This document shows, piece after piece, positions 31,347 to 39,142 of a stretch of 39,142 nt of DNA; position 1 is the stretch's first letter; each line of letters opens with the position of its first letter. The stretch spans positions 1 to 39,142 of the forward strand of contig NZ_ABOX02000060.1 in assembly GCF_000172555.1 (NCBI RefSeq), read 5' to 3'. Under the pieces are notes generated by a model. That model was not told the DNA's origin. It made no database searches and saw only the letters and a program-made list of their open reading frames with translations. Made by a program: the position numbers and the translations under genes. This DNA comes from Pedosphaera parvula Ellin514 (GTDB lineage Bacteria > Verrucomicrobiota > Verrucomicrobiia > Limisphaerales > Pedosphaeraceae).

Positions 31347-31793
31347 TCACTGGCACTGGGGGCAAATGCCAAAAAACTCCAGCCTGTGAGTTATGGCCTT
31401 AAAGCCGCTTTTGGCGGCAATTCGCTCCTCGAGTTCCCGGGTAAAGCAGTCATCGATTTCCACCACTGCGGCACAACGGCTGCACACAAGATGGTGATGG
31501 TGTCCATCATCTCCTTCCGCCAGCAACTCGAACCGCGCTATCCCGTCTCCCAGGTCGAATCTCTTGACCATGTGCATGCTCTCCAGCAAATGCAGTGACC
31601 GATAAACTGTCGCGAGATCGCAGTCCCCCTTCAGCTCTGCAAATATCTCCTTATTGGACATCGGATGAGGATGTTGCCTAAGAATCTGTAAAATCGCCTG
31701 CCGCGGTCCGGTGATCTTGCGCGACTTGCGCCGGAGTTTGTCGGTCAACTCCGGTAACTCCGCCCGTCCATGTTCATGTGAATGACATTTCAT
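31347..31793 (-). CDS. zur: Fur-family repressor, probable zinc uptake regulator Zur
   Basis: A 148-residue Fur-family protein. The winged helix (RKITGPRQAILQILRQHPHP through DLATVYRSLHLLE) precedes the dimerisation domain with the regulatory metal residues (GDDGHHHHLVCSRCAAVVEIDD) and the structural zinc pairs C-S-R-C and C-P-Q-C at the end. The N-terminus carries MKCHSHEHG, an extra potential metal-binding stretch. Its start overlaps the end of znuB by 4 bases, and it lies last in the znuA-C-B operon; this position makes Zur by far the likeliest of Fur/Zur/Mur/Nur. It would repress the operon, including itself, when zinc is plentiful. Confidence 0.9.
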   Translation of the reverse strand: MKCHSHEHGRAELPELTDKLRRKSRKITGPRQAILQILRQHPHPMSNKEIFAELKGDCDLATVYRSLHLLESMHMVKRFDLGDGIARFELLAEGDDGHHHHLVCSRCAAVVEIDDCFTRELEERIAAKSGFKAITHRLEFFGICPQCQ

Positions 31794-32620
31794 GTCGCCA
31801 GTGACTTGAATGCTTTTCCAGTTCTCAATTTACCTGCGATCATCGCCACCACAAATATTCCAACGCAGGTCAGCACAATCGTTGAACCACAGGGAACGTC
31901 CAATTGATACGACAATATTGTCCCCCCTACTCCGCCTAGAAGTCCAAAGAGCAGGCTGAAAAGGATTTGCTGGCGCAGGTTCCGACTCAAACTCCGGGCG
32001 GACGCCGGTGGAATCACAATCAGTGAAGTGACCAGTATAATTCCCAATAGTCGAATGCTCATGGCTACCGTCAGGGTCAGCACCAGCACGAACAAATAAT
32101 TCAATCGCTTTACTCGCACTCCACACACATAGGCCATGTCCTCCTGCGCCGAGAGCAAAGTGAGCGAGCTTAGCTGCACAAAAATTCCCGTCCCTACAAC
32201 TCCCAACAAGACTGCCCCCAGCCAAACATCCTTCCACTCAATCGCCAGGATATCTCCGAACAAATATCGCTCCAGTTCCCCCTGATAGTTTCTGCCATGC
32301 AGCAGGCTTAAAATAATAACACCCAATGCCACCGACCCGGAAAGCAGCAACGCCATAATGGTATCGGATAACAACTCTGTGCGTTCCTTCAGCCACATCA
32401 TGGCCGCAGCCACGAGCAAACTAAATCCCACCATCGGCACGGTTGGCTCGGCAAAGCCCAACCAAAAACCCAGCGCCACGCCCGCCAATGCTGAATGCGA
32501 TACCGTATCACTGAAGAACGCCATTCGCCTGGCAATGACAAATACCCCGAGCAGCGCACAAAGCGGCCCCAGGCAGAGAGCCGCCAGCAAAGCACGTTGC
32601 ATGAATGGTTCAGTGAACAT
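31790..32620 (-). CDS. znuB: Zinc ABC transporter, membrane permease
   Basis: A 276-residue ABC-3 family permease with eight or nine hydrophobic helices: LAALCLGPLCALLGVFVIAR at the start, the SDTVSHSALAGVALGFWLG coupling region, then GMSIRLLGIILVTSLIVIPP and a final LTCVGIFVVAMIAGKL. This is the membrane channel of a zinc or manganese importer; with Zur next to it zinc is much the likelier. It starts inside znuC (11-base overlap) and its end overlaps zur by 4 bases, so the genes are translationally coupled. Confidence 0.92.
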   Translation of the reverse strand: MFTEPFMQRALLAALCLGPLCALLGVFVIARRMAFFSDTVSHSALAGVALGFWLGFAEPTVPMVGFSLLVAAAMMWLKERTELLSDTIMALLLSGSVALGVIILSLLHGRNYQGELERYLFGDILAIEWKDVWLGAVLLGVVGTGIFVQLSSLTLLSAQEDMAYVCGVRVKRLNYLFVLVLTLTVAMSIRLLGIILVTSLIVIPPASARSLSRNLRQQILFSLLFGLLGGVGGTILSYQLDVPCGSTIVLTCVGIFVVAMIAGKLRTGKAFKSLAT

Positions 32621-33386
32621 GATGATGGTGTTCGTAAGGTGATACGTGAATGCCGTATGCCTGTTTCAACGAATCGGCATTGAGCACCTGCTCTGGCGTG
32701 CCTTCGCAGCAGATTACTCCGTTCAATGCGAACACATGCGATGCATGGCGATAAACCATCGATAGATCATGCGACACAAGGATCACGGTCAGGTGATATT
32801 GTTTTTGAATATGGGCAATCAGTTCGTAGAAAGTTTCTTCGCCCGGCGTGTCAACACCGGCAGTAGGCTCATCCAACAAAAGCAGTTCCGGCTTCGTCAG
32901 CAGGCTGAAAGCGATGAGCACCCGTTGCAACTGTCCGCCTGACAACTGCGCCAGAGGTCTGTCAAATAGCGGCTCGACCCCAATTTCTGCCAGTGTGGCG
33001 CGAATCAGTTCGTCGGTGCGCTTGTGTGATTGCCAGAACCAGTTGTTCGTTTTTCTCAGGCGTAAAGCAAGGAATTCCCGCACACTCAAAACAAAACTCC
33101 TATCAAGAGCAAGGCGTTGCGGCACATAGCCAACCCGATGCATCACCTTTTGCAGATCACTTTGACCGAATAATTTGATCTCTCCGGCAGATACCTTTTG
33201 AAGTCCCAGCAGGCAGCGCAACAAGGTTGTCTTGCCGGAACCATTGGGCCCAATCAAAGCCACCAACTGGCCATGAGGCACAGTGAACGTGACCCCGCGC
33301 AACACCGGCTGGCCATCAAACGAAACCCGCACATCCCGTGCTTCCACCGGCACGGTTGAATGTGCATTGCAGCAGGGAGCGCTCAT
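32610..33386 (-). CDS. znuC: Zinc ABC transporter, ATP-binding protein with His-rich ends
   Basis: A 258-residue ATPase. Walker A is GPNGSGKTT (about residues 43-51), the Q-loop lies in VGYVPQRL, the signature is LSGGQLQRVLIA, Walker B is LLLLDEPTAG and the H-loop is VSHD. It drives ZnuB. Unusual features are metal-binding termini: MSAPCCNAHS at the N-terminus and YEHHHHVH at the C-terminus, which could sense or buffer zinc. It overlaps znuA by 4 bases and znuB by 11. Confidence 0.93.
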   Translation of the reverse strand: MSAPCCNAHSTVPVEARDVRVSFDGQPVLRGVTFTVPHGQLVALIGPNGSGKTTLLRCLLGLQKVSAGEIKLFGQSDLQKVMHRVGYVPQRLALDRSFVLSVREFLALRLRKTNNWFWQSHKRTDELIRATLAEIGVEPLFDRPLAQLSGGQLQRVLIAFSLLTKPELLLLDEPTAGVDTPGEETFYELIAHIQKQYHLTVILVSHDLSMVYRHASHVFALNGVICCEGTPEQVLNADSLKQAYGIHVSPYEHHHHVH

Positions 33387-34477
33387 TTTAAAGATTCCTC
33401 CAATACGCGTAAATTCTGATACATCGCATCCTCATAAGCTGTTGCCTTGAACTCTCCGGTCTCAATTGTATCCAGTTGCGCTACCGACACGTTGTAATCA
33501 CGTCCAATCATTTGGGCCAACCGCGAGGAAGTCTGGCGCTCTGTAAAAATGGCTTTCACTTTCTTCGTCCGTATGGTTCGCCCCAATGCAGCGAGATATC
33601 GGGGTGAAGGTTCCACGTCTGGCACTTTTTCAATCACCCCCACGATTTTCAAATCATACCGCCGCGCAAAATATGGAAATGCATTATGCAAAGTAATCAC
33701 GGGCTCAGCCTTTGCCGATGCCAAGCCTGCCTCCAATCGACCGTTCAATTCCTCTAATTTCGCAATGTAGGCCCTCGCGTTGCGAGTATATCCCTCCGAA
33801 TTGGCGGGATCAGCTTTAATCAACGCCTCAAGAATATTGGTAACCTCGTGTTCTGCTAATTTTGGATCAAGCCAAATATGAGGATTGGGAATCGCACCAT
33901 CCTCCTTTGTCTCGCTGGATCGATAATTACCTTCCTTTTCAAATGCTCCAAAAATCAGTTCTGACTTCAATCCCGCAGCCGCCTCCACGATAATTTTCGG
34001 CCGCTCCGCCGAATGTATCAGCTTGTCGAGCCATGCTTCCAACTGCAACCCATTCACCACGATCATGTCCGCCCCAGCCAACTTCTTAACCTCACGCGGC
34101 GAAAACTGGAAGTCATGCGGGTCAGCTCCCGCAGGCAGAAGATTTTCCACCTCTGCCAGATCACCAGCCACATTCACTGTGAAGCAATAGATCGGCAGAA
34201 AACTGGTCAAAACCTTTAATTTCTTCCCTTGTGCTGATGCATCGGGCACGTGCGCCATCAGCAATAAACCAAGGAGCATCCAGGTTATACCGAATGCCGA
34301 AAGAAATTTCCGAATGGCAGGAGGGATTTTGGTTTGAGGCAAGGCGGAGGCCGCAGGCGCTATCCCTAGATAGCGACCAGGCCGACAACGCCGCCTCAAA
34401 TCAAAAGCACCCTGCACCCAACGACTAACGAAGTTCTTCCTGCCCCAAGCCATCGCCTTTTCAGTCTCCACTTTCAT
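33383..34477 (-). CDS. znuA: Zinc ABC transporter substrate-binding protein with repeat-encoded N-terminus
   Basis: A cluster A-I periplasmic metal-binding protein. From about residue 65 it is normal: the hydrophobic core WMLLGLLLMAHVPDASA of a signal peptide, then KKLKVLTSFLPIYCFTVNVA, zinc-ligand segments AGADPHDFQFSPREV, NPHIWLDPK and TLHNAFPYFARRY, and the C-terminal FTERQTSSRLAQMIG. Residues 1-64 are encoded by the inserted repeat, with the junction at ATA-ACC around 34286. Possible starts are ATG 34477, ATG 34453 and TTG 34342, all inside the element. Without the element plus one TA, a GTG at 34562 would read MKPLRLTWMLLG directly into the same frame, a normal signal peptide. It is first gene of znuA-znuC-znuB-zur. 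Confidence 0.88.
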   Translation of the reverse strand: MKVETEKAMAWGRKNFVSRWVQGAFDLRRRCRPGRYLGIAPAASALPQTKIPPAIRKFLSAFGITWMLLGLLLMAHVPDASAQGKKLKVLTSFLPIYCFTVNVAGDLAEVENLLPAGADPHDFQFSPREVKKLAGADMIVVNGLQLEAWLDKLIHSAERPKIIVEAAAGLKSELIFGAFEKEGNYRSSETKEDGAIPNPHIWLDPKLAEHEVTNILEALIKADPANSEGYTRNARAYIAKLEELNGRLEAGLASAKAEPVITLHNAFPYFARRYDLKIVGVIEKVPDVEPSPRYLAALGRTIRTKKVKAIFTERQTSSRLAQMIGRDYNVSVAQLDTIETGEFKATAYEDAMYQNLRVLEESLK

Positions 34478-34546
34478 CAGGCTTATTGCCTTCTTTCATT
34501 CCGGTTCTTTTCTCCATTTCGGAAATTAATTTTGGCATTCGGTATA
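34286..34546 (-). mobile_element. MITE-like element, full copy B (257 bp plus TA duplications) inside znuA
   Basis: The element begins TACCGAATGCC at 34288 and ends with the inverse, GGCATTCGGTA, at 34544. Inverted termini extend imperfectly over about 30 bases (inner part AAATTTCCGAAT / ATTTCGGAAATT). TA is duplicated on each side (34286-34287 and 34545-34546), as for Tc1/mariner/IS630-type elements. It contains an internal palindrome CGCTATC-CCTA-GATAGCG and no transposase, so it would need one in trans. It lies between the znu promoter and the ZnuA body. Transcribed leftward it carries an open frame that continues into znuA. Confidence 0.82.
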
Positions 34547-34586
34547 GGCGCAGCGGCTTCACTTCTAAAACTCATCCTTTCCAACC

Positions 34587-34610
34587 GTAATTGCAAATCG
34601 TTTGCATTAC
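34587..34610. promoter_or_regulatory. Candidate Zur box
   Basis: The core TGCAAA-TCG-TTTGCA (34592-34606) is a perfect 6-3-6 inverted repeat, flanked by GTAAT on one side and TTAC on the other, a Fur-family-type operator layout. It overlaps the spacer and -10 of the only good promoter in front of znuA (34590-34618), so a bound repressor would block transcription. No verrucomicrobial Zur consensus is known to me, so the assignment rests on symmetry and position. Confidence 0.65.
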
Positions 34611-34618
34611 GTTTTCAA
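34590..34618 (-). promoter_or_regulatory. Candidate sigma-70 promoter of the znu operon
   Basis: Read leftward: -35 TTGAAA (34613-34618), a 17-base spacer, and -10 TGCAAT (34590-34595), 5 of 6 and 4 of 6 matches to consensus. It lies upstream of the inserted element and of the ancestral GTG start at 34562, and downstream of the rpsR terminator. Confidence 0.5.
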
Positions 34619-34623
34619 GAAAA

Positions 34624-34646
34624 CTCCCCGCAGGTCGTGCGGGGAG
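34624..34646 (-). terminator. Rho-independent terminator after rpsR
   Basis: An 8-bp perfect GC-rich stem, CTCCCCGC (34624-34631) with GCGGGGAG (34639-34646), around a 7-base loop, followed leftward by TTTTCTT. It lies just past the rpsR stop and insulates the ribosomal-protein operon from znuA. Confidence 0.82.
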
Positions 34647-34652
34647 AAAGTT

Positions 34653-34916
34653 TTACTTCATCAGCAACATCTGCCGGGCCCGCTTGATCGAGCGGTTCAG
34701 CTGACGTTGATAATGGGCAGGCAGACCAGTGTATTTACGAGGAAGGATACGACCCTGGTCGGTCACAAACTGCTTGAGCAGATTGGTATTCTTGAAATCG
34801 AGTGCGTCGATGGTGAAGTCGATTTTCGGCTTCGGCCTCGGTGTGCGCATCTCGCCGGTGGCGCTTCTTCCGCGACCACCACGTTTTTCCTTATCCGTAT
34901 GAGTTTTGCGTGGCAT
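34653..34916 (-). CDS. rpsR: Ribosomal protein bS18, zinc-free form
   Basis: An 87-residue bS18. The core DALDFKNTNLLKQFVTDQGR, ILPRKYTGLPAHYQRQLNR and IKRARQMLLM is canonical. It has no cysteine at all, so it is the zinc-independent (C-minus) type. It sits directly after rpmG (5-base gap), not in the usual rpsF-rpsR-rplI operon, which suggests it may be a secondary copy of the kind that Zur controls in mycobacteria (rpsR2 with rpmG2). It could also be the only copy in the genome; the window cannot decide. A strong terminator follows. Confidence 0.93.
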   Translation of the reverse strand: MPRKTHTDKEKRGGRGRSATGEMRTPRPKPKIDFTIDALDFKNTNLLKQFVTDQGRILPRKYTGLPAHYQRQLNRSIKRARQMLLMK

Positions 34917-34921
34917 ATGCT

Positions 34922-35089
34922 TTACTTAATTTCCCGGTGCACCGTGTGACGACGCAGGAAGGGATTATACTTCTTGATCTCGATCTTTTCCGGCTTCAAT
35001 TTCTTATTCCTGCTGGTCATGTAACGGGAAGGTGATTTGCCTTCCTTACGTGCCTCTGTACATTCAATCGTAACGGTTTCTCTTGCCAT
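34922..35089 (-). CDS. rpmG: Ribosomal protein bL33, zinc-free form
   Basis: A 55-residue bL33: [20 protein letters not shown], then [20 protein letters not shown] and [14 protein letters not shown]. Zinc-binding bL33 has two CxxC pairs; here a single Cys10 remains, and the second pair position reads N-P-F-L. It is therefore a C-minus paralog type. The ATG lies 3 bases downstream of the DksA-like stop and the stop 5 bases before rpsR, so the three genes form one tight operon. Confidence 0.93.
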
Positions 35090-35092
35090 AAA

Positions 35093-35671
35093 TTATTCCT
35101 TTTCCTTCGCTGGCTTTTCTTCTGGTTCATCATCGTCTTCCACTTCATTGGAACCGGCATTATCCACCGTGCCCAATGCTCCCAAACGACGTTGACGCAA
35201 AGCGCCTTCCTTCTCCAACTGCGCTTGAGCCTGAACCGTGAACCGTGTCCAGGGAATTGCTTCCAGGCGGGCCTTTGGAATCGGCTTGCCCGTCAATTCA
35301 CAAACGCCATACGTATTCTTCTCAATCCGCTTCAACGCTTCTTCAATTTCGTAAATGGCATCCTGATCAGAAGATAGGAGGCTCAATGCGAAATCACGAT
35401 CAAAATTATCCGTGCCGGAATCCGCCATATGCAGGCTGTATCCGGCCAGTTCCTGGGCGGATTCTTTTGCCAGCCCGCTCATCTGCTTAAGCAGTTGCTC
35501 CCTCAATTCCAGCAAATTCTGATAATAACCAGCCCATTCAGGCTTGATTTTGGCTTCGCCGTTCTTTTTTGCTTTCTCCGATGGCAGCCCAAGGATGGAC
35601 GCAGCCGTGGCGGAGCGCACCGACTTACTTCCGGTGGGTTCTTTCTTCACTATCTTCTTATTTGTTGTCAC
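35093..35671 (-). CDS. DksA/TraR-like protein with degenerate zinc finger
   Basis: A 192-residue DksA/TraR-like protein. A charged N-terminal tail is followed by the coiled-coil with its acidic tip (DSGTDNFDRDFALSLL, about 84-99) and the C4-finger region YGVCELTGKPIPKARLEAIP, then TRFTVQAQAQLE. Normal members have four cysteines, C-x2-C and C-x2-C; only C124 remains, with Thr127, Thr145 and Ala148 at the other places. The finger therefore cannot bind zinc normally, as in DksA2 of Pseudomonas, a Zur-regulated replacement. The start is GTG 35671. It would bind RNA polymerase in the secondary channel and modulate stringent-type transcription. First gene of the operon with rpmG and rpsR. The acidic C-terminal tail is unusual. 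Confidence 0.82.
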   Translation of the reverse strand: MTTNKKIVKKEPTGSKSVRSATAASILGLPSEKAKKNGEAKIKPEWAGYYQNLLELREQLLKQMSGLAKESAQELAGYSLHMADSGTDNFDRDFALSLLSSDQDAIYEIEEALKRIEKNTYGVCELTGKPIPKARLEAIPWTRFTVQAQAQLEKEGALRQRRLGALGTVDNAGSNEVEDDDEPEEKPAKEKE

Positions 35672-35681
35672 AAATCCGTTA

Positions 35682-35699
35682 ACAATTCTGCATTATTGT
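35682..35699. promoter_or_regulatory. Possible degenerate Zur-type site upstream of the dksA-like gene
   Basis: ACAAT and ATTGT flank TCTGCATT, and TGCATTA (35689-35695) repeats one half of the znu operator. It lies 11-28 bases before the GTG start. Weak; listed as a test target only. Confidence 0.2.
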
Positions 35700-36665: not shown

Positions 36666-37052
36666 AGTAATGGGCCCGTCAGGCATCATCCAAAGTAACA
36701 GCCCAACCCCATTTTGCAAATCATTCCATATTTGCCCATTTTTGCCCATAATCCACCGAAGCCCCTCCACTCCAAACCCTTCAGCAACCTGCTTTTTCAT
36801 TCCCATCAACCTCTCCGAATTCAGAAGCCCTTGCCAATTTTCCAGAAGGAGGAGTCTGTTGAGATCAACTTGTAAACATCGCGCGCTGGCAACAACCGTG
36901 AAGGATTTTCCGGGAGCTTCCTGACCGTCGGAAATGTCTCTCTCACTCTGGATAAAGCCGAATCTGAAGGGGAACAGTAGAACTGGGTATTGCTCTACTG
37001 ACAGCAGTGCCCCCTCTATGTGCCTTGCTTACGTGACGGTCATTTGGGTTAG
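36666..37052. other. Intergenic region upstream of folE2
   Basis: A 387-base region between the P-type ATPase stop and folE2. It contains TTGCAAATCATTCCAT at 36714-36729, of which the first nine bases (TTGCAAATC) repeat one half of the znu operator exactly; the other half is not conserved. Two TTTGCCC repeats follow (36731 and 36741). No gene or clear terminator is seen. Confidence 0.35.
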
Positions 37053-38909
37053 TCATGTATCAAAATCCGTCAACTGTTTCGGCCGCCACGCAGCCCGCAG
37101 CGCATTAAGCACCGCCAGCACATCAATGATTTCCTGAACAATCGCTCCCTCCACCGGAACTAAATATCCCATCCCGGCGAAGATCATTCCTATGACACTC
37201 AACGCCATTCCTCCCATCGCGCTTTGAAGTGCAATTGTCCGCATGCGATGACTGATGTGCATCAGTTCATCCACCCGCTTGAGCGCCCCTTCCATGATGA
37301 CAGCTCCCGCCGCCTCCGCGGTGATGTCGCTGTTTTGACCAATGGCCACACCCACGGTGGCCGCCATTATTGCCGGCGCATCGTTGATGCCATCTCCTAC
37401 GTACAAGGTTTTGGCGAGAGCCGTTTCGCCACGGACAATGGCGAGCTTTTCCTCCGGGTTCTTCTCTGCATGGATTTCAGTAATGCCAACCTCTTTGGCA
37501 AGGTACTCAACTTCGGATTTGCGGTCGCCGGAAAGCAGCATGATTCGCTTGAAATGATGCTTCGGCGCAAGATGCCCAATGAAAGAAACACTCTCCTCCC
37601 GTGGCGCATCATGAAAGCGAAAGGTGGCGGCATAGGTTCCATCGATAACGACCATGCACTCCAGCCCGCTGGTGATTCCAGGAAGATGCTCCGGTCCGGC
37701 AACCTTTTGCCTGACCAGCTTGCCGCGACTGGTGATTTGAACCTGATGGCCGGAAACCGTCCCACGCAGTCCCTGCCCCGGAGGTTCACTGATCTCCGCC
37801 GCTTCCAGTTGTCTGACGCCAGCCTTCTTCGCTGCAGCTAAAACCGCGCTGGCCAGCGGATGCTTTGAATATCGCTCCAGGCTGGCCGCCAGCGCGAGCA
37901 CTTCCGTTGGAGAAAAACCGGGGGCCGTCATTTGTTCAGTGAGCTTCGGCTCTCCATAGGTCAGCGTTCCTGTTTTATCAAAGATCACCACTCTGCATCT
38001 TTGGATTTGCTCAAGGACAACCGGGTTTTTAATGATGATGCCGCGCCGGGCACAGAGTGAGATCGAACCAATGATGGCAACGGGTATGGCAATGATCAAC
38101 GGACAAGGCGTTGCAACCACCAATACTGCAAGAAAACGCACCACCTCGCCGGTGGAAAACCAGGCAACAAGTGCCACCGCAATTGCGAACGGAGTATAAA
38201 AAGCGCCCAATTGGTCGCCTAAACGTCGCATTCGCGGCCGATTCTCTTCGGACGAGCGCATGACTTCCATGATCTTGGCGTAACGCGAATCCACCGCGCG
38301 TTTGATGGCACGAATAGTCAAGGCTGAATCCCCATTGATCGCGCCGGAAATCACCATCGAACCCGGCGCCTTCTCGATCTTGAACGGTTCGCCTGTGAGA
38401 AAGGATTCATCCATCTCCCCATGCCCTTCAATCACCAATCCATCCACCGGGCAAATATCATGTGGAAAGAGGATCAGGGTGTCCTCCACCGAAACTTCAT
38501 CAAGTTTCACATCCACCACCTTGCCATTCGACTTTCGGTGAGCCACAGATGGCATGCGTTTGGCCAGGGCACGAAGCACTGAGGAGGCGCTCTGCACGGC
38601 ATAATTTTCCAGGGCCTCTCCGCCTGAAAGCATCAACACAACCAGCGTTCCCGCCAGGTACTCGCCCAATACTATGGAGGTTACAATGGAAATTCCCGCC
38701 AGCAGATCGGAGCCAAACTCACGATTCAACAATTTCTTCCCCAATTCATAAAGCAGCGGAAGTCCACCCAGGACCAACGCGGTCCAAAGTGGAATCTCAT
38801 GAATGTTCCTGCCCGTGTGGAATCCAAACCGAAGCACCAGGTGCAAGGCTATGGCGGCGATTGAGAGCACTGCGATAAACACGGTCTTCCGGCGCCAGAT
38901 ATAATTCAT
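37053..38909 (-). CDS. Heavy-metal P1B-type ATPase with TPCP motif
   Basis: A 618-residue metal-transporting P-type ATPase. Actuator motif TGEP is at 172-175, the ion-channel motif in the sixth helix is T-P-C-P (267-270, in [15 protein letters not shown]), the phosphorylated Asp311 lies in FDKTGTLT, then [16 protein letters not shown] and [12 protein letters not shown]. There is no N-terminal heavy-metal-associated domain and no C-terminal hemerythrin domain. TPCP differs from the CPC (copper or zinc/cadmium) and SPC (cobalt) classes and is like the P1B-5 group, whose members handle nickel or iron, but that group usually has a C-terminal hemerythrin. ATG 38909 is preferred (GGAAAGG touches it); ATG 38948 would add 13 residues. 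The metal is unknown. Confidence 0.86.
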
Positions 38910-38984
38910 CCTTTCCAAAAAATGGGAGGAAGGTAATTGATGCCTCATACTTTTAAGTGGAAGCCTTTATCCAAAGTACCATTC

Positions 38985-39142
38985 TATACCGAATGCCAAA
39001 ATTAATTTCCGAAATGGGGAAAGGAAACTGAATCAAAGAGGGTAAAAAGTTTTATGAAAGTGGACGCTGAAAAATTATGACTGTGGGGCGAAGAAATTCA
39101 TTAGTCATTGGCTGCAGGGTGCTTTTGGTTTGAGGCGGCGTT
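38985..39142 (+). mobile_element. MITE-like element, copy C (cut by window end)
   Basis: It begins TATACCGAATGCCAAAATTA and follows the other terminus and interior of copy B closely, including GCTGCAGGGTGCTTTTGGTT near the end of the window. The frame MKVDAEKL is closed by a stop, unlike copy B. Only the first 158 bases are visible. It lies upstream of the P-type ATPase gene. Confidence 0.8.

Follow-up and report, generated by a model that had tools for sequence, protein, structure and literature searches.

A conserved palindrome before znuACB-zur of Pedosphaera parvula Ellin514 as a probable Zur-type operator of the Limisphaerales

Organization of the locus

The window, by which we mean the whole analysed stretch of 39,142 nucleotides of contig NZ_ABOX02000060.1, carries on its minus strand folE2, dksA, rpmG and rpsR, followed by an intrinsic terminator, a palindrome and the genes znuA, znuC, znuB and zur (Table 1). 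The perfect inverted repeat TGCAAA-TCG-TTTGCA that the initial annotation had pointed out was found as described. The best NCBIfam match of the znuC product was ZnuC, with a score under the cut-off of that model. YcdH was the nearest solved chain of ZnuA and AdcA, labelled zinc-binding, was among the next, and ZnuA has a histidine, as in YcdH, at what we take to be the third ligand position. A heavy-metal P-type ATPase, exceeding the cut-offs of TIGR01525 and TIGR01512, is encoded near the zinc locus at 37053-38948, where no operator copy with up to two mismatches was found.

Table 1. Features of the zinc-uptake locus in window coordinates.
Feature	Positions	Strand	Basis or remark
Operator core TGCAAATCGTTTGCA (proposed), 6-3-6 inverted repeat	34592-34606		sequence and conservation in relatives
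Extended dyad, outer arms CGTAAT/TTACG	34586-34611		column statistics, 24 sites and 58 unique sites
rpsR intrinsic terminator, immediately upstream of the operator	34624-34646	-	9-pair stem, T tail
Possible promoter hexamers TTGAAA-N17-TGCAAT, weak	34590-34618	-	sequence only
MITE-like 261-base repeat, 29-bp terminal inverted repeats (90%)	34286-34546		near znuA 5' end, between operator and gene
znuA, ABC importer binding protein	33383-34477	-	PF01297, 246.8 bits
znuC, ABC ATPase	32610-33386	-	PF00005, 106.5 bits
znuB, ABC permease	31790-32620	-	PF00950, 225.5 bits
zur, proposed repressor of the Fur family, encoded last in the operon	31347-31793	-	PF01475, 92.5 bits

The MITE-like repeat has TA flanks and an inverted partial copy at 38984-39142, and the genome holds at least 40 matches to it of at least 130 bases (40 of 95 candidates were scored). 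When its flanks are joined at one TA, a single ORF with a signal-peptide-like start results. Reading from the old znuA start (34562) now ends at a stop codon within the repeat, where the listed znuA ORF also begins (34477), with a repeat-derived N-terminus; the operator was left intact by the insertion.

Perfect 6-N3-6 repeats occur 13 times in the window and are thus common by themselves, so that the case for an operator has to rest on sequence, place and conservation. The exact string TGCAAANNNTTTGCA was found at three places in the 7.41 Mb genome, namely at the operon, between convergent ORFs at C8:24879 and within a coding ORF at C20:53104, and a zinc gene adjoins only the first of these. 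When 16 of the 35 one-mismatch places were searched with zinc-type queries, nothing specific was found, the only match being a distant ABC ATPase (31%). The C8 copy (positions 5880-5894 of L016, G000:C8:19000-31000) has long symmetric flanks and is preceded by a hairpin and its T run; the small ORFs beside it look toxin-antitoxin-like by eye, and no zinc gene was found near it in 12 kb.

The palindrome had also been said to coincide with the spacer and -10 element of a promoter, TTGAAA-N17-TGCAAT. These hexamers are present on the minus strand, but the -10 candidate TGCAAT matches TATAAT at 4 of 6 positions and a sigma-70 promoter scan gave no match at the site. Among 58 unique sites from relatives, preselected for at most one core mismatch, no conserved -10 or -35 columns were found, only the T run of the terminator, which is kept 13-18 bases before the core; the TTG of TTGAAA is, in relatives, the end of this rpsR terminator T run. 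A ZIP start could be recognised from its first codons behind 13 of these 58 sites; there, 11-44 bases separate the end of the site from the start codon, a spacing that points to a putative overlap with the core promoter.

Conservation of the site in relatives

Clear zur orthologs (E <=1.5e-35) were present in 31 of a set of 58 genomes, Pedosphaera included, nearly all of them Limisphaerales. Thirty-one loci were taken, from 30 ortholog genomes and from the weak homolog in G039; the 24 that hold rpsR or znuA, together with the window, gave 25 loci from 25 genera in which the sequence following rpsR or preceding znuA could be read. The best match to TGCAAANNNTTTGCA had no mismatch in 15 of these, one in 8, two in 1 and four in 1, so that a site with up to two mismatches lies at the same place in 24 of the 25 readable Limisphaerales loci, the window counted. 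At the remaining locus (L083, G037:C13), TGCGATAATGTCGCA, a palindrome of equal size and other letters, stands 91 bases past rpsR, and the regulator has diverged (48% identity), a possible case of co-evolution.

A second set, taken from named genomes, comprised at least 80 loci, of which 52 had a regulator at 44% identity or above and 28 one below; it overlaps the first (L139 matches G005) and the two are not independent. The 52 closer loci carry mostly names such as Verrucomicrobia, Limisphaerales and Pedosphaera, with a few under other names, and 49 remained after three had been left out as too short at a contig end. Among these zur-ortholog loci, 22 had the exact palindrome, 18 had one mismatch, 3 two, 2 three and 4 four to five. 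Among the loci listed, a site with at most one mismatch was thus found in 40/49 zur-ortholog loci vs 0/28 more distant Fur-family loci, the latter read over 200 bases before the gene and the closer ones mostly over 300 bases after rpsR; four of the 28 distant loci have a match at two mismatches, and in several, Fur boxes resembling TGAAAATnATTATCA can be made out by eye. Three of the four loci with four to five mismatches (L153, L155, L172) had no rpsR, znuA or ZIP match as an anchor, and the fourth, L159, has rpsR and ZIP yet no site. Several records titled Klebsiella pneumoniae or Akkermansia muciniphila (L154, L151, L169, L171, L178) carry the rpsR-zur locus typical of Limisphaerales and look like misassigned metagenome bins.

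The same motif emerged when no template was given: of all palindromes in the 120 bases that follow rpsR, TGCAAA-N3-TTTGCA was the most frequent, occurring in 20 of 44 named loci, and it reached at most 1 of 44 in 200 shuffles. From 24 sites and the 58 unique sites, a Limisphaerales-wide consensus of the extended dyad could be written as approximately CTAATTGCAAATSATTTGCAATTAG; in the preselected 58, neither TGC arm ever varies at its G or C, and beyond about 25 bases the conservation declines. The gene behind the site varies, being znuA-znuC-znuB-zur, ZIP-zur or zur alone (G002), and 4/4 ZIP genes tested there match PF02535 over its cut-off. Since the site stays while this gene changes, it would serve zur and whichever importer sits there.

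Exact copies and the predicted regulon

The pattern TGCAAAYNRTTTGCA occurs exactly at 34 places in the 58 genomes, compared with 4 for a reversed control pattern. Zinc-uptake genes were found at 27 of the 34, comprising 6 at other places and 21 before znuA, ZIP or zur, among which one locus is counted twice, on two contig ends, and znuA of G045 consists of a 41-residue fragment, located at a contig end, that matches weakly (E 0.007). Clustering at zinc-related genes, which had been suggested as a check, is therefore borne out in the relatives; in the Pedosphaera genome itself one copy lies at the zinc operon, but the other two exact copies do not lie at zinc genes.

Two copies share one contig of G002. 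The first lies 63 bases before a ZIP gene whose product has a His-rich loop, with a TonB receptor gene on its other side, and the second lies before a HEAT-thioredoxin gene followed by genes for an ABC ATPase, an FtsX permease, three DUF3299 proteins and a cation-efflux protein; solved-chain matches of the TonB receptor were weak. The whole stretch (848-14655 of L125, G002:C82) forms a zinc-uptake cluster that also contains ExbB and TonB genes according to Pfam. In G054, one copy stands 67 bases before a TonB receptor gene and the other before the gene for a secreted protein, and the best solved chain of this receptor was ZnuD at 143 bits, followed by the next at 34. The G033 copy lies beside His-rich proteins, one of which shares 47% identity with a G002 cluster protein, and the G036 copy precedes an operon with distant ZnuA and ZnuB homologs (25% and 24% identity). 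The G003 copy (L126, G003:C83, 5228) stands 107 bases before an Nramp transporter gene, hinting at an overlap with manganese or iron uptake. No zinc gene was in reach at 6 of the 34 copies (the C8 copy of Pedosphaera, G010, G042 and three in G052).

An exact copy was present in 21/31 genomes with a zur ortholog vs 4/27 without one (Fisher p = 4.8e-5, only a guide because the genomes are related). Among the four copy-bearing genomes without an ortholog, G016 has a partial zur match, the copies of G010 and G042 lie inside coding ORFs, and G054 has its two copies and no clear zur ortholog that we could find. Conversely, of the 10 zur genomes without an exact copy, seven have a site with one mismatch, G023 breaks off at contig ends, G037 has the other palindrome described above, and in G027 zur is present and no site was found. 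The features of a Zur operator, that is, a zinc-uptake operon with a dyad in its promoter region, a regulon that recurs in relatives and co-presence of the regulator, were thus found together. The label verrucomicrobial, given to the site at the outset, is apt for the Limisphaerales, where 8 of 23 genomes of a wider class sample have an exact copy, but too broad for the class, with 5 of 118 other genomes, though two of these five (G171 and G167) have it directly before znuA. In G167, a TonB receptor gene runs divergently on the other side of the site and shares 49% identity with the G002 receptor gene; no zinc genes were found near the other three non-Limisphaerales copies.

Neighbouring genes upstream of the operator

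Weaker sites had been proposed upstream of folE2 and of the dksA-like gene. The strings themselves, TTGCAAATC at 36714 and TGCATTA at 35689, are present, but neither forms a palindrome or is conserved. TGCATTA occurs four times on the plus strand of the window, once inside the operator site, and the best core match has four mismatches upstream of folE2 and five upstream of dksA. In the 300 bases preceding the gene in named relatives, the exact palindrome was found at 0 of 15 folE2 loci (one had one mismatch, three had two) and at 0 of 40 dksA loci, none of which had a match with up to two mismatches. These counts leave out znuA, whose start had been extended from a query carrying a foreign N-terminus, and they speak against operator sites at both genes.

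Zinc-free backup genes could likewise be ruled out as evidence for zinc, since rpsR is single, folE1 is absent and dksA and rpsR are linked without zur. In 30 genomes, rpsR was single-copy in 28 and not found in two, and folE1 was absent in 26, Pedosphaera included; a second DksA over the cut-off likewise lacks the four cysteines. No zinc-free paralog under a Zur box was thus seen among rpsR, folE and dksA. The dksA-rpsR linkage, with or without rpmG, recurs at 9 of the 27 loci that represent other orders in the class; zur was not found within the 1.5 kb flanks of these nine loci, and their genomes have no exact site. The full dksA-rpmG-rpsR linkage (34653-35671 in the window) is seen in several families of the class (L246, L256, L257, L260), and in L235 rpsR lies, by eye, between ssb-like and rplI-like ORFs. 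For Verrucomicrobiae, Table 2 of an earlier survey, as excerpted, gives only the C-minus forms of S18 and L33 (PMC3087516).

The regulator

The product of the last gene belongs to the FUR family (PF01475) and stays under the NCBIfam cut-offs for Zur, Fur and PerR, the best model being a Fur model (114.1 bits, cut-off 220) and the Zur equivalog NF008646 giving 29.6 bits against a cut-off of 167. Its nearest solved chain is likewise a Fur (9ire, 92.5 bits), with the Zur-labelled chains 2o03 (FurB/Zur) and 4mtd at 54.7 and 21.8 bits. A structural CxxC...CxxC zinc site is present, with C104, C107, C144 and C147 invariant in 27/27 orthologs, and E89, H98, H99, H101 and the pair Y64-R65 are invariant in the same alignment. 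Characterised Zurs of actinobacteria, Bacillus and E. coli have a cysteine in the regulatory zinc site where this regulator has Glu89, a residue as in Fur; all 27 orthologs have the glutamate, and the cysteine ligand of the reviewed Zurs is accordingly missing here. Because of this Fur-family glutamate in place of the Zur-type cysteine, zinc has to be deduced from the targets, namely a ZnuA of the YcdH/AdcA type, ZIP transporters, the DUF3299-ABC cluster and a ZnuD-like receptor, which together suggest it. The genome contains two other Fur-family genes, one on C14 and one on C8 beside sufB and an ABC ATPase gene (sufC), which makes the gene at the zur position the natural candidate for zinc.

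In chain 4raz, presumably the Fur of Magnetospirillum with its numbering shifted by two, Tyr64-Arg65 are aligned with a Tyr-Arg pair, which would then be Tyr56-Arg57. In Magnetospirillum Fur, Tyr56-Arg57 contact thymines and the conserved guanine in a DNA that contains TTGCAAATCATTTGCAA, according to the excerpted structural report (PMC4506495). The alignment and this crystal suggest that a Fur-type helix can read the core, and they imply that the motif alone leaves the metal unfixed.

Comparison with known systems

A literature search with the exact string returned the core in work on the Magnetospirillum Fur crystal and on Clostridium thermocellum. In the excerpts of the latter (PMC8457756), DAP-seq of Fur_1691 gave TGCAAATcATTTGCA upstream of the zinc ABC operon clo1313_1690-1688, next to which the regulator is numbered; it was proposed as the zinc uptake regulator, and similar sites were noted before zinc transporters of other species. 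The Pedosphaera site agrees with this system, as far as excerpted, in the identical core, in its place before a zinc ABC operon and in the Fur-family protein, whereas the phylum is another one and the regulators are likened by operator core and operon context. The Pedosphaera locus also differs in that zur is last in the operon, that the operon follows dksA-rpmG-rpsR and that relatives may swap the ABC importer for ZIP.

The Zur boxes of actinobacteria, Bacillales, enterobacteria and cyanobacteria in the excerpted review (PMC6103462) are likewise dyads for a Fur-family dimer at promoters of zinc-uptake genes; they are often written as 7-1-7 or 9-1-9, and the E. coli motif quoted there differs in its letters from the Pedosphaera dyad. 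The co-crystal DNA TTAATTGCAAATCATTTGCAATTGC of Magnetospirillum gryphiswaldense MSR-1 Fur, a symmetrised feoAB1 operator, holds the same core, and Tyr56/Arg57 of that protein correspond to Tyr64/Arg65 of the Pedosphaera regulator; however, MSR-1 Fur is an iron regulator and its natural operator differs at three positions, according to the same excerpts (PMC4506495). The Zur-controlled zinc system zrgABCDE of Vibrio combines DUF3299 with an ABC permease and an ATPase, as does the box-bearing cluster of G002, but such a cluster is absent from the Pedosphaera window and the operator letters quoted in the excerpt differ (PMC9817125). No use of a Zur box or of this core was found for Limisphaerales among the literature matches listed; the core is already known, and its use in Limisphaerales would be the new part.

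Interpretation and alternative readings

The palindrome keeps its position throughout the order, co-occurs with the regulator and recurs at zinc genes, and the DNA-reading residues of the regulator are conserved. This computed support sustains well the Zur-operator reading of the initial annotation, and from sequence comparison we consider it highly probable that the palindrome is a Zur-type operator with autoregulation of znuACB-zur. We infer binding, promoter overlap and repression with zinc as the co-repressor from these observations. Loaded with zinc, the Fur-family protein would bind the dyad as a dimer and cover the core promoter that directly follows the rpsR terminator, which would repress both the zinc importer and the regulator's own gene; upon zinc shortage, the regulator would be released and the operon transcribed.

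The most serious alternative is that the site belongs to a Fur- or Mur-like sensor of iron or manganese and that the ABC and ZIP transporters of these loci import those metals. Glu89 is Fur-like, a Fur is the best solved chain (92.5 bits, with 54.7 for FurB/Zur 2o03), and the G003 copy precedes an Nramp gene. The symmetrised core is bound by Magnetospirillum Fur in the excerpted structure (PMC4506495). Yet the genome has its two other Fur-family genes (C14, and C8 by sufB/sufC), several distant Fur homologs have, by eye, TGAAAATnATTATCA-like boxes instead, ZnuA aligns best with the YcdH and AdcA types, and targets in relatives include the DUF3299-ABC cluster, a ZnuD-like receptor and ZIP transporters (a His-rich loop is present in one); together these points render an iron or manganese sensor improbable.

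That the palindrome might act in RNA, as a leader hairpin or an extra terminator, and not as an operator, would fit its near-fixed distance behind a real terminator and the 6-bp stem with a 3-base loop that it could form. The letters themselves are conserved, however, as the invariant G and C of the TGC arms in the 58 preselected sites demonstrate, no T run follows the palindrome, and copies lie between divergent genes in G002 and G167; we therefore give this very little credence. Equally hard to credit is that the palindrome arose by chance or serves some unrelated DNA-binding protein: the 13 perfect repeats in the window and the two of three exact genomic copies that lie away from zinc genes could suggest it, but 24 of the 25 loci, which represent 25 genera, keep the place, the shuffles reach a maximum of 1 of 44 where 20 were observed, and the site co-occurs with zur.

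If the site is the Zur-type operator that we favour, its regulator may represent a distinct zinc-sensor line derived from Fur, common to Limisphaerales and Clostridium, that combines a Fur-type Glu metal site, in place of the Zur site with its cysteine, with a TGCAAAT dyad, is missed by Zur models and has in relatives a regulon extending from ZnuD-like TonB receptors and ZIP to DUF3299-ABC genes, a tentative idea that we hold to be somewhat doubtful. A regulator that is nearest to Fur models and would be a zinc regulator by its targets calls for caution in automatic annotation. The motif would further tie TonB receptors, ZIP and DUF3299-ABC genes of Limisphaerales to zinc, providing a working operator motif of zinc control for an order of Verrucomicrobiota that is known mostly from metagenome bins.
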